Source: Botrytis cinerea B05.10
Taxonomy: Eukaryota; Ascomycota; Leotiomycetes; Helotiales; Sclerotiniaceae
Direction: 5' to 3'
DNA length: 64,000 bases
Assembly: GCF_000143535.2 (NCBI RefSeq)
Contig: NC_037316.1
Coordinates: 1,426,001 to 1,490,000, forward strand
Positions within the stretch are counted from its first letter, which is position 1. Every line of letters starts with the position of its first letter. The notes beneath the pieces are model-generated. The model did not search any database and was not told the origin of the DNA. It saw only the letters and a list, made by a program, of their open reading frames with translations. Shown in pieces: positions 40,727-48,726 of this stretch. The translations under genes were made by a program, and so were the position numbers.

Positions 40727-41152
40727 TTAAACAACTCTCTCAACCTCTCCTCCAAAAACGAGCAAAGGCTGCTCAGAGCTAAAATTGGGAACATCACCCA
40801 TGATAGTTGGTCCTTCCGCCGCTCCGGCCTTAGCCCATGCCTCCTTGCTCTCGAACCATAGGAGTGCTTGCCTATTATCAATTTGTTAGCTATTTTACCA
40901 CATAAACATCATTCGGTATTCAGCCATTTTCTTCCGAGATATACACATCGGAGATAAGAACAGCACACAAGACTCGAGAAAAACATACACAGAGTATCCT
41001 CCGCTCTCATCCAACTTTGTAACGGTCCAATTCTTCAGTCCGTGAGAACCCCATTTCTCCTGAACGAGCGGCATGTGTGTCTTCATATAGTAATCCATGT
41101 CGAAAGTCGAGGTTTCGGTCTTAGGGTACATGACGGTGACGATTAAGGACAT
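40727..41152 (-). CDS. EthD-domain protein
   Basis: Exon 1 is 41152-40989 and exon 2 is 40871-40727, giving 102 residues, the usual length for single EthD-domain proteins. The N-terminal MSLIVTVMYPKTETSTFDMDYYMKTHMPL has the F-D-x-x-Y-x-x-x-H-M-P-L pattern of the family, and the second exon supplies WFESKEAWAKA and a GDVPNFSS motif. EthD proteins form dimeric alpha-beta barrels; in bacteria EthD accompanies ether degradation, while fungal members often act in polyketide tailoring or have unknown roles. No biosynthetic genes lie next to it. Without splicing the frame would end early in intron sequence. Confidence 0.85.
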
Positions 41153-42309
41153 TTTGGCGGTTTGCTTGATTGCTTTGAGATTGAAACAGAAGTAAAATTC
41201 GAGTTATGAGATCAGATGTCAATCCACTAGTTGTCAATTTGTTGTTGTTGTCGTTGAAAGAGGAGAGGTTGAGGAAAGAAAAAAAGAAGAGGGGTTGCTG
41301 GCAACATGACTAGTTTATAATCAAATCAACCCCGCACCTTCTTCCGTGCACGACGATAGCACAACCTTCCGTCCAGCCAGAGAATGTAAAACTCCGACGC
41401 TATACACGCTAAATCGGTGTTAACGAATTGGCAAAATCGATCATGTCTCTGACTTCAACTCGATTGAATACCTCGGGGCTCACACACAGTACGTACTCGG
41501 TGGGAATTTTGAAGAGAAACACATCCGATTAGGCTCCTGGGTTACATATTAAATACTCGCCTGCTTACAAGCTCTATCAGATTGATACCTGGTACTTGTA
41601 GATCAGATGCATCTACACTTCCTAACAATACGTGTAGAGTTCTTTACGGCTGTTGTTCTATTTGCTGGACGCACGAATACTTTAATCGAGCCTCTGTCGG
41701 TCTGATTTCAAGTGAGATTTGTGTAACGATTGATAGACAGATCTTCAAGTTTATGCAGATGGGTGGGTTCGCATCTGGTAATCGTGGCAGGATACCTTCA
41801 CGTGACCTTGGTGGAGAAGAGGGAAAATGGTGGCATGGGATGGGATGGAATGAGATGGTGAGAGATAATACTCAATCAAGAGTGCCTAGTTAGCTGTAGT
41901 GATTGGAGAGACACTGTGCTTTAAGTATGGAGTCAAGTAGAAGAATTTGAGAATCAAATGGATAAGTAAATTCCCAGTATGAATACGTAAAACACGGCCA
42001 GCTGCGTCAAAAGAATAATTATACCACCGAATAAATGATTTCCTCCCCAAATCGACATCAACGCCTCATATCGTGCTCACCATGCCATCCATTTCCAGTA
42101 TCTCGCGGTGCATATCCACTTTGCAGATCGACTGCATCCCAACCTCCCTGCACCATTCTTCGAGCAAAAGAATTTCTATCCAATCCTCCCCCAAGAGATG
42201 TTGAATTTTGATTTTCAGGTAAATCCTTTGATTGGAATGGTCGTGAATAATGCGATTCGTATCCAGAGAGGTGTGCTGGCTTTTGGTTACGGGGCTCTGA
42301 ATCTATATA
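41153..42309. other. Intergenic region
   Basis: Upstream region of the EthD gene and 3' region of the next minus-strand gene. A plus-strand frame at 41582-41893 has no recognisable features. No other feature seen. Confidence 0.45.
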
Positions 42310-43793
42310 TCATGAGTTTCTTGAAAGCAACGCGGGGAGCGGGAGACACGTACTATTATCCATACCTATCTTCGATCCATCCATAAGTCCCATATTCTGA
42401 TAATCTTTCAAACTGGCAGACCATGTCTCATTTGACGCTTCTTCACTGCTGTTCGATGTAGATGGCGCCATTCCTTTGAAAGGATAACTGGAGAGAGAAA
42501 TCCCCCGGATTTCTCTCGATGTCTTTTTCCATGGTAGTCGAGTAGATAAGGAAGCTATGATTGGTTTGTTGTTGTTCTTTTTGGCTCGATTTCGACTACG
42601 TATAAGCCAAGATACGAGTGCGAAGACCAAAATAAATGCGACTCCGCCAGTAGCGCCCCATGCGATGAGTTTCGTGTCGGCTGTGGTACTGGAAGAGGGG
42701 GCGGTACTAGGGGTAGGAGATGGGGATGCAGAACTAGCTACGTAGAGAGGGGAGGTTATGGACGAGGAACCAGGAGAGTTGGCAACGGGAGCTGATGTGG
42801 TTGTGAGTAAAGGTAGTGAATCAGAGGGGTAAGCAGATTCTGATGAGCTGTAAGGTACTGTATACACCGATATTCGGACAGCGGTGAATGTCGATATTGA
42901 GGTTACGGTCGCAATATTCGGATTAGTTGATATGGAACTGCTGTCATTGTTGGAATCACTGAAATTGGTCAATATTGTGCCTGACGGCGCAATTTGGGTA
43001 AAACTTGGAATATTGGATGCGGTGAGATAGAAGATTGAGGGCGTTGTAGATTCAGTTCCAGAGTTTGAATAGTTCAAAGACGACTGGGTCAAGTACCCTG
43101 TATTATTCCATGATGCTGTCTTTGAGAATTTCGAATATTCTAATGATAAAAATTGATCAATTGTAGATGCTCCAGGATGGGTCGTCACAGAGATCGTTGG
43201 GATTGGAAAAGTTGCCGTTGGAAGGATACCAGTCTGGAAAGTAGTGCTCCGTGAGCCAGCAACGTTCGAAGCAGTAGTCACCGACCTAAATGCCGCAGGA
43301 TATAGATGAGATTGAGGACAATTGGTAGCGTTGCTCGAACATGGATCGATATCACAACACCCTTGAAACGATGGATTTTTACTTGAACATATCCACCAGA
43401 TTCCAGAAGAACAATACACATTTGGCCAATATGAGCCAAGATTCATTGATCCTTCATCTCCAGTTTCTCCGTGTCCGAGTCCAGCTGCTCGAAGATCGCT
43501 TTCTGGGCATCCTTTATTGTTGCATGGGTTGCTTGTACAACATCCGAAGAAGGTTGGTGTTTGAGCTGTGCAGGTATACCTGTAATTTGATCATTCAGTA
43601 TTGTTATATAGCATGACAGAAGAACACCTCACCACTATCAAAACATTTGGTCAGTAATAGTTTGTAAGATAATTGAAGGACATGCATGGGATGAATACTC
43701 TGGAGAGATTCGATCAGGGTGGTTTAAAAGCAGAGAAAAAACTATACTCACAAGACCTCCTAGAGGACAAGTACCCATACTATTGTTTGTCAT
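42310..43793 (-). CDS. Single-pass membrane protein with two Cys modules (paralogue A)
   Basis: Best model: exon 1 43793-43752, a 2-nt exon 43634-43633, and exon 3 43579-42310, giving 437 residues. The N-terminus (MTNNSMGTCPLGG) leads into two related Cys modules: module 1 has YTCTAQTPTFFGCC...NPC...GCP and module 2 has YWPNVYCSSGIWWIC...PSFQGCC...DPC...CP. A long Ser/Thr-rich, probably O-glycosylated stalk follows, then one TM helix at about residue 320 (GATGGVAFILVFALVSWLI) with a basic stop-transfer RSRNRAKK, and a cytosolic tail. The design resembles fungal wall-stress sensors, but the modules are not WSC domains and there is no clear N-terminal signal peptide. It could be an orphan surface protein. 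The paralogue lies directly upstream on the same strand. Confidence 0.7.
43579..43752 (-). other. Two introns flanking a predicted 2-nt exon
   Basis: Intron 1 (43751-43635) runs from GTGAGT to GATAG and intron 2 (43632-43580) from GTGAGG to TTACAG, leaving only TG between them. TG plus the first G of the next exon makes the Trp codon expected from paralogue B. Skipping the two bases would shift the frame and hit a stop after about 20 codons. Confidence 0.5.
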
Positions 43794-44209: not shown

Positions 44210-45445
44210 TTAGTTTCTCGTAGATCCCGACTTCAAGACTTCCGGTAATGATGCTCTAAAGGGATCCTCCGACGTATCTGGTAGTTCTACCGTCCCTGGT
44301 CGAGAAACAAATGATTTTTGTTGAATATATGGGGATTCAACTTCGTGCAAGATAGAAGAGTCAATCTCATGGTGATTAGAGAATTCCGGAGATTGCGGCG
44401 CGGATTGATATGGTGGAGCAGGGCTAAGAGGTGGAGATGATGGTATCTCTGATACTGGACGATAATCTGCCAAACCATTAATGAGACATTCTGCCGTTCT
44501 TGAAGGGGTAGCAATCACCTTTTCGCAGAGCTTTAGCATCTGAAGCGCTACCTTCATAAACAGTAGGTGATGAAATTGCTTTAACCATGGATATGTCTTG
44601 AGGTGGCGGTTGATAATATGGCTCGACTGCACCCGCCAATGGAGTTCTCTTTCTATATCGTTGGACGCAAAAGATAATTAGAAGAACAAGTACGATAACA
44701 ACCACTCCACCTAAAGCGCTCCCTATGATTGCAGTAATCGGCAGTTTTGAGTTTGAATTGTGCCGACTTGAGCCTCCTGTCGCTGTCACTGTGGCCGAAT
44801 CTTGAGATGACGGAGTTTCAGTCGAACTTGTGTCAGTAGCAAAGTTCGTTACAGGAGATGAGGAAGTCGAAGATGTATAGATTGAAAGGGATGCAGAAAT
44901 CGAAGATAATGCCGGAGATGATAAAGTTGAGGGCGATGAAGCCGAAAATGATGAAATAGACAACGATGAAGTGGGGTCAGATGAAGTCTTTGAGGCAATA
45001 ATAGAGGCAAATGTAGCTGGGACGCTACTAAATGCTGCAGCGTAGAGCCTTGGTAACGGACAACCATTTTCGAGACACGGATTGAACTTCTCGCTCGAAC
45101 CAGGGTCATTGTGGTCATCACAACAACCTTGAAATGACGGAGTCTGTCGGGAGCAAGTATACCAGACTCCTCCATTGGGGCAATCCGCATTTGGCCAATA
45201 TGATCCATCGTTGCTAGAAGCATCCGGACCACCTGCTGTCCCCATTCCTGCAGGTAAGAGGTCTTCTTCAGGGCAACCAATTCCATTACATGGATCACTC
45301 GCACAGCACCCAAAGAATGTGGGCGACTGATCTAAACATATCCACCTAGAATTTTAAACTTATCAACGATATTCAGGGCTTTAAAAAAAGATGAAACTTA
45401 CCAACTACCGCCGAGTGGGCATGATCCCATGGAGTTTCCAGACAT
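44210..45445 (-). CDS. Single-pass membrane protein with two Cys modules (paralogue B)
   Basis: Exons 45445-45402, 45345-44552 and 44490-44210 join in frame to give 372 residues. The N-terminus MSGNSMGSCPLGGSWW matches paralogue A. Module 1 has ICLDQSPTFFGCC...DPC...GCP and module 2 has YWPNADCPNGGVWYTC...PSFQGCC...GCP. A Ser/Thr-rich stalk, one TM helix (ITAIIGSALGGVVVIVLVLLIIF) with a basic flank (QRYRKR) and a Pro-rich cytosolic tail (SEIPSSPPLSPAPPY) follow. The last intron (donor GTAGCG, acceptor GGCAG, 61 nt) is the least certain; reading through it gives a shorter C-terminus ending at 44478. Similar to paralogue A in order of parts, so a tandem duplication. Function unknown; surface sensing is a guess from architecture. 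Confidence 0.72.
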
Positions 45446-47371: not shown

Positions 47372-48726
47372 ATGGGCGTCTCAGAGCTTATCGATTCTAT
47401 CAATCTTGCTACTAGAAAATCTAGTGAGTTGAAAGATGAAGATCGAGAAAAGCTTCTTAATGCTTGTGGAAAACTACAATCAAGCCTAGAAGGTCCTCGA
47501 GATAAGTTGATGAAGATGATATTCTCGGTGAGTATCCATCGTGTTCACATATCTAAATGGTTTCTGACGAAGTTTTAGTCACTTCAACCAGTAGCACTTG
47601 GCCTCGCAGTCGACATGCAAATTTTCGATACAGCAGCTGCTTTGTCTGCGGCTAGGAAAGAAATTCGAGCCGAAGACCTTGCTTTGCCAAAAGGGGCTGA
47701 TACTTTGCTTGTTGGTGAGTCTCAATTTCAAGATGTAAAGGACTGTAAGGAACTGACCATATATTAAGTCAGGGTCATGAGACTTTTGGTAGGAATGGGT
47801 TACTTCACTGAAATGGCCAGAGAAACCTACAAACCAACACCATTAGCAAGCGCTCTCGTCACATCATCTCCATACGGCCAAGCCGTGATTCATTTGTATG
47901 ACAAAACTAATTTTCAACTTTTGTTCCATATCTAACAATCCCTAGTACAACCCAAAATGAAGTTGTAGCCTCTCTCCCGACATACTTTGCCAAAAAGGGT
48001 TATCAGAACCCCAACGATGCATACGATGGTCCATTCCAGTTTGCCCGACAAACAGACCTCCATTGTTTTGACTGGATTGCTACTCAGCCACGTATCCAAC
48101 ATGCTTTCAATACCGTGATGACCATTCCCCGCACCATCGGTCGTACAGCATGGTATGAGTATTTTCCCGTTGCGGAAAAGCTCAAGGTAAAATCGCCTAC
48201 AGATCCACTTATAGTTGATATTGGAGGAGGTATTGGACACGATTTGGTTCGTTTCAAAGAAGCACATCCAAACCTTCAAGGAAAACTTATCGTAGAGGAT
48301 ATTCCGGCAGTGGTTTCTGGTATCACGCCAGGCTCTCTTCCTGACGGCATTGAAGCTAAAACCTATGACTTCTTCAAACCACAACCTATTCACAATGCAA
48401 AAGCTTATTTTCTCGCCAACGTCTTGCACGATTGGCCTGACAAGCAAGCTTGTGTTATTCTCGAGCAGATTAAGGATGCTATGGGTAAAGATAGTATGTT
48501 ATTGATCAATGAAATTTTGATGCAAGAAGAGAATGTATCATTCGAGAGTGCCTGTACAGATTGGATGATGATGGGGGGATTTTCGGCTTTAGAAAGGACG
48601 GAGGGGCAATTCAAGGAGCTGATTGATAGTGTGGGGTTGGTTTTGGTGAATGTTTGGGGGGCTCCAGGTGTAGAAAGTGGACCTTGGGAGGGAAGAAGAC
48701 TATTGGAAGTGATGAAAAATCAATGA
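47372..48726 (+). CDS. SAM-dependent O-methyltransferase (COMT-like, plant/fungal type)
   Basis: Exons 47372-47527, 47579-47714, 47769-47895 and 47946-48726 give 399 residues, typical for fungal O-methyltransferases. The N-terminal part (about 1-160) is the helical dimerisation/substrate domain. The SAM-binding motif is VDIGGGIGHDLVRFK, followed by VEDIPAVV and YDFFKPQP. The catalytic His lies in ANVLHDWPD, and Glu in NEILM. The family methylates phenolic or polyketide hydroxyls. Neighbours are not biosynthetic genes, so it is not clearly in a cluster. Start chosen at the first Met that gives MGVSELIDSINLATRK; an upstream in-frame ATG at 47297 adds 25 residues. Confidence 0.92.

Follow-up and report, generated by a model that had tools for sequence, protein, structure and literature searches.

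A putative 2-nt exon in a membrane-protein gene of Botrytis cinerea and its probable origin beside an older family intron

The locus and its genes

The sequence analysed here (the window) comprises 64,000 nucleotides of Botrytis cinerea B05.10 (contig NC_037316.1, positions 1,426,001 to 1,490,000), and the coordinates below are those of the window. The gene of interest is located on the minus strand. Its exon and intron coordinates were read again from the window sequence; strand, exon 1, introns, TG exon and main exon are all placed as in the initial annotation. The coding part of exon 1 (43752..43793) encodes MTNNSMGTCPLGGL, ends in phase 0 and resembles the beginning of a tandem paralogue (MSGNSMGSCPLGGS). 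It is followed by intron 1 (43635..43751; 117 nt; GTGAGT...ACTGAC...GATAG), by the predicted exon of two nucleotides, TG (43633..43634), which would supply bases 1 and 2 of a Trp codon, and by intron 2 (43580..43632; 53 nt; GTGAGG...ACTGAA...TTACAG), located in phase 2 within the same codon. The main exon (42354..43579) contributes the final base of the Trp codon and, by reading, encodes two Cys-rich repeats, a Ser/Thr-rich stalk and one membrane span. Intron 3 (42303..42353; 51 nt; GTACGT...ATATAG) has a weak branch-point score; it is supported by the sequence beyond it, which also continues the orthologue models P0001 and P0005. The last coding exon runs to the stop codon (42058..42302), and the spliced translation gives a complete product of 504 aa.

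The product is presumably a surface membrane protein with two Cys-rich repeats. With a threshold of E up to 1, the main exon matched no Pfam family, and three relatives gave only weak matches below the cutoff. As in several of its relatives, the Cys-rich domain starts close to the very beginning of the protein, and no obvious signal peptide is apparent by reading despite the membrane span located downstream. The tandem paralogue (MSGNSMGSCPLGGSWWICLDQSPTFFGCC..., 44210-45445, minus strand) lies directly upstream and contains one intron of 56 nt (45346..45401), at the TG|G position of the same codon that harbours intron 2. Elsewhere in the window, an open reading frame at 40895-41203 (minus strand) presumably resembles an EthD-type small protein, and another one at 47911-48726 (plus strand) is taken by us to resemble an O-methyltransferase.

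The junction with the TG exon (CTT-TG-GTATACC) is contained in GGTCTTTGGTATACC, and the form used for comparison reads GGTCTTGTATACC. The exon stands between GATAG and GTGAGG, with ACTGAC and ACTGAA as branch points, and it thus has the features of a microexon, that is, an exon of 1-15 nt enclosed by AG and GT with plausible branch points. Besides, the enumeration of structures and the comparison of homologues described below indicate that it is needed both for the reading frame and for a conserved residue. When the outer intron alone is removed in translation (CTT joined to GTATACC), the reading shifts out of frame and meets a stop 21 codons on, close to the "about 20" extra codons given previously for the single-intron product.

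Splice-site scores and alternative structures

Splice sites were scored with a model combining donor, branch point and acceptor, for which 51 candidate introns taken from 200 kb of this genome served as the training set. As these introns were self-selected, some of them may be false, and as they were restricted to 45-100 nt, the length of intron 1 (117 nt) is itself outside what the model tested. Among the 51 candidates, the total score of intron 1 is at the 82nd percentile and that of intron 2 at the 59th. The lowest-ranking elements are the GATAG acceptor (24th percentile) and the branch point of intron 2 (35th percentile). The outer single intron scores 20.2 (80th percentile) and would therefore compete. 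Exonic donor positions show little preference across the 51 introns, so a 2-nt exon need not weaken the recognition of the donor.

All structures leading from the ATG of exon 1 to the main exon were enumerated with at most two introns of at least 40 nt and GT or GC donors. This resulted in 84 in-frame structures free of stops, nine with a single intron and 75 with two introns. Ranked by the score of the weaker intron, the 2-nt exon is the first of the 84 with 18.4, followed by a structure with 16.2, and the best single-intron structure reaches 14.1. The initial annotation had claimed that no donor/acceptor pair keeps the frame with one intron; taken literally this does not hold, since nine such structures exist, but the best of them scores 14.1 against 18.4 and none of the nine contains WYTC. 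The one-intron in-frame structures were rejected. Among the 25 top structures listed, GGLWYTC without extra residues is produced by the TG structure only.

The chance expectation was estimated from 5000 dinucleotide shuffles of the intron interior, in which the exon ends, the outer donor and the last 30 intron bases were kept fixed. A 2-nt exon completing Trp with both introns scoring at least 18.4 was found in 0 of the 5000 shuffles (49 with a threshold of 12), and an internal exon of any length at 18.4 or above in 32; these figures are guides, because the thresholds were taken from the observed case.

The tryptophan codon in distant relatives

Two protein searches provided 41 different homologous proteins, 34 from the first one, carried out with 406 residues of the main exon, and seven more from the other; the relatives were read from protein models alone. 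They consist of 18 Sclerotiniaceae orthologues (P0001-P0018, with P0007 and P0017 counted as such by similarity), P0035 and 22 more distant proteins. The alignment held 28 of the 41, including all 22 distant ones. Botrytis provides the most similar proteins, including two models of B. cinerea itself with 98% and 99% identity over the aligned parts (P0005, P0035). No DNA of the relatives was found in a search of genome contigs and viral contigs. A distant genomic relative (L004, 1441-1660, contig C15) carries one Cys-rich repeat of this kind (GQQWYVCTANSFQGCC), and its frame is open, by reading, through the Trp codon.

Trp is present at this site in the tandem paralogue, as it had been stated before, and in all 16 of the distant relatives with a complete start. 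The other six of the 22 appear to have been translated through an intron, and all six have Arg right before Y[TA]C. This residue fits AGG, in which the acceptor AG would precede the G that closes the Trp codon. In four of these six (P0020, P0021, P0027 and P0032), the upstream residues can be back-translated as CPxGG-x-TG|GT, in frame +1 only and from the first residue; as a control, none of 579 stretches of 25 residues allows such a reading in a shifted frame. No TG|GT reading was found upstream in the remaining two, P0024 and P0029. The back-translations in the four relatives therefore suggest that TG is joined to the CPxGG exon, with a single intron after TG, in at least four other sequences.

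Gene models in Sclerotiniaceae

The sequence GGLWYTC is absent from all 18 Sclerotiniaceae models, so none of them includes the exon, whose placement may be beyond the reach of automatic pipelines. Nine models begin downstream of exon 1. Six others (P0004, P0006, P0009, P0010, P0011 and P0015) keep the start up to GGL and then leave the family sequence, as would be expected if Botrytis, Sclerotinia borealis and Ciborinia shared this phase gap. In two of these six, from B. deweyae (P0004) and B. fragariae (P0006), Trp comes directly after GGL. Counting this Trp, 12 and 13 of 18 residues, respectively, match the B. cinerea translation that begins at the GATAG acceptor and runs on through intron 2, and thus both models seem to use intron 1 as predicted and to miss the second donor. 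The donor of intron 2 in B. fragariae, deduced from the residues WCG, would be GTG[C/T]GG, which is weaker than the one in B. cinerea. The model from B. hyacinthi (P0002) shows exon 1 read in a shifted frame compatible with MGTCPLGGL, followed by the main exon.

Not all models agree with this picture. Residues 1-16 of the B. globosa protein (P0003) read MTNNTMGTCPLEVL-YTC; Trp is missing, and the outer junction keeps the frame. This implies an exon 1 that would be one base shorter, either as a real escape from the microexon or as an assembly error, and the model speaks against the universality of the TG exon. The S. nivalis model (P0008) defies interpretation. As far as conservation in the relatives can be read from protein models only, P0004 and P0006 fit the acceptor and Trp, and six models, including these two, fit the phase gap.

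Proposed splicing mechanism and origin

The observation made on this gene was confirmed, and its interpretation as a 2-nt exon is supported at the sequence level. It is very probable that the gene carries the exon TG, which is most likely constitutive, that its two neighbouring introns are removed in two separate rounds of intron definition, and that intron 2 is the older and intron 1 the younger of them. In the sequence, this interpretation is based on the splice sites, the reading frame, the conserved Trp and the relatives that fit an intron at TG|G. From these features we infer the excision of both introns in vivo, the constitutive use of the exon, the order of removal and the intron gain in the lineage.

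An exon of two nucleotides is hardly recognisable across the exon, but in fungi the recognition of short introns takes place across the intron, as reported for filamentous ascomycetes in the work on stwintrons (PMC6616335). The same source reports the experimental confirmation, in B. cinerea, of a stwintron, which requires two splicing rounds (PMC6616335). Under the mechanism proposed here, intron definition would operate twice on the pre-mRNA, in separate rounds of splicing. After the excision of either the 117-nt or the 53-nt intron, the other one would remain as a short intron of the usual kind, whose donor or acceptor would lie 2 nt away from the junction just formed. The spliced product would read CTT-TG-G, encoding Leu-Trp in frame.

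Concerning its origin, intron 2 is most likely the older family intron, located within the Trp codon (TG|G), and TG is probably the tail of the old exon 1. Intron 1, probably the younger one, would have been gained afterwards in the lineage that gave rise to Botrytis, Sclerotinia and Ciborinia, at a site 2 nt upstream of the older donor, and this gain would have severed the final two bases from the original exon 1. Two possible sources of intron 1 were considered and rejected. A search of the genome (42.63 Mb, 18 contigs), which skips simple and very common words, found intron 1 in its own place only, against a copy of a repeated intron element; the local similarity between introns 1 and 2 (24.0) was matched by 76 of 500 shuffled pairs and is not significant, so a duplication of intron 2 is not indicated. 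The loss of a base followed by rescue, an idea put forward for a 1-nt exon of Fusarium (PMC12940212), is possible, and it explains less well that TG stands directly at the older donor.

A further reading goes beyond the origin of the exon: the intron gain would have taken place and become fixed in the ancestor of the Sclerotiniaceae, the 2-nt exon would be family-wide, its inclusion or skipping would set the amount of the surface protein, and B. globosa would have escaped by a change of one base in exon 1. Skipping would then remove the 172-nt outer intron and cause a frameshift. This reading is considered unlikely.

Among the rival explanations, a stwintron has to be taken into account because the outer junction scores 20.2 by itself and the donors of introns 1 and 2 (GTGAGT and GTGAGG) are reminiscent of the donor duplication that has been suggested for Lipomyces stwintrons (PMC7138796). 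In such a case an internal and an external intron would together account for the removal of all 172 nt; alternatively, removal of the outer intron alone would be the main event and out of frame, as in a decaying gene or in regulation coupled to decay. Both versions lead to an mRNA with CTT joined to GTATACC, out of frame and with the stop after 21 codons, yet the frame downstream is open and conserved in orthologues. Furthermore, the internal intron of a stwintron interrupts an element of the external one and no exonic base is retained, whereas here the elements of both introns are complete, and the TG case is not a strict stwintron because two bases must stay in the mRNA. Taken together, this explanation is very unlikely, although the skipped form made by the outer junction can coexist as a minor product. 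Even less credit is given to the proposal that exon 1 is unused and the protein starts at a downstream Met within the main exon (MNLGSYWPNVYC...), the 5' region having one outer intron or being unspliced. P0001 and P0007 begin exactly at the MNLGSYWPNVYC Met, and half of the 18 models start past exon 1. However, this start removes the first Cys-rich repeat, which is kept by all 22 outside homologues, and exon 1 or the first repeat can still be recognised in several Botrytis models. Automatic gene models are often truncated where exons cannot be joined.

Two more explanations are regarded as extremely improbable. According to one of them, the gene is fused with the upstream paralogue in a single transcript for 721 aa (H4I96_04766), its own exon 1 and TG being unused, and the B. 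cinerea model P0035 indeed joins ...EVLK to YTCTAQ. By reading, this fusion requires GTCGGG to serve as a donor within the final exon of the paralogue, the stop of which is bypassed, and no other of the 41 proteins shows such an architecture; moreover, other species have a recognisable exon 1 of this gene. The other one, to which hardly any probability is assigned either, is a different in-frame pattern, for instance a 67-nt middle exon (43699-43633) with a last intron ending at 43566, or a weak downstream donor with one intron. There are 83 further stop-free structures, the best with a weaker-intron score of 16.2, but all of them score below the TG structure. The form with the 67-nt middle exon loses WYTC and adds 22 unrelated residues, and two others among the 25 listed structures keep WYTC but insert residues and score 14.0 and 13.2.

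Comparison with known systems

The following comparison is based on excerpts of the papers cited. Exons of this size are rare, as it had been noted at first, but sizes as small as 1 nt have been documented in plants and in Fusarium; the kind is thus already known. In land plants, 1-nt exons have been reported in APC11 (PMC4674806) and VPS55 (PMC8831610), with proof by RT-PCR or RNA-seq. There, as in the TG case, the frame depends on the ultra-small exon, and stepwise splicing by intron definition has been proposed for APC11 (PMC4674806, PMC8831610). In contrast with the TG exon of B. cinerea, these are plant exons of 1 nt, and the VPS55 exon is alternatively spliced in some species (PMC8831610). 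Exons of 2-5 bp have been described in Arabidopsis, Drosophila and human (PMC12940212, citing Volfovsky 2003).

The closest fungal case is CYP621A of Fusarium, in which a 1-nt exon is covered by 18 SRA reads (Nelson and Syed 2026, PMC12940212). Both cases concern an ascomycete, with out-of-phase exons around a conserved motif and an ultra-small exon between AG and GT. The Fusarium exon is conserved across the genus, and the transcripts of the gene models are reported to be wrong, with one named exception (PMC12940212). On the other hand, the Fusarium exon has 1 nt, is backed by reads and has been related to base loss and rescue, whereas the exon described here has 2 nt, is predicted from sequence and fits better with a new intron beside an old donor (PMC12940212).

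Related to this, the stwintrons of Pezizomycotina, including that of rtnA in B. cinerea, also involve two short introns, two consecutive rounds and similar neighbouring donors (PMC6616335, PMC7138796). They differ in being nested, with no exonic base between the introns, whereas two bases would be kept in the mRNA of the present gene. The Xlr2 gene of Trichoderma virens likewise has a microexon in a filamentous fungus, which is functional and for which regulated inclusion has been reported (PMC11121469). The excerpt of a review on non-canonical splicing (PMC13149111) contains nothing on 1- or 2-nt exons. Neither a fungal 2-nt exon nor this gene appears among the literature matches listed, judged by titles and the beginnings of abstracts, which for the broader searches are a minority of all matches. 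As far as these matches go, the TG case and its readable history are new.

Implications

Exons of this kind are probably undercounted, and gene-finding software tends to miss them. If RNA confirms the TG exon, it would be a fungal 2-nt exon whose birth is readable from its relatives, with the old intron, the young one and the two bases stranded between them distinguishable from each other, and the locus would offer a natural test of stepwise splicing by intron definition. If true, it would also explain why the usual start of the family is missing from all 18 models of Sclerotiniaceae.
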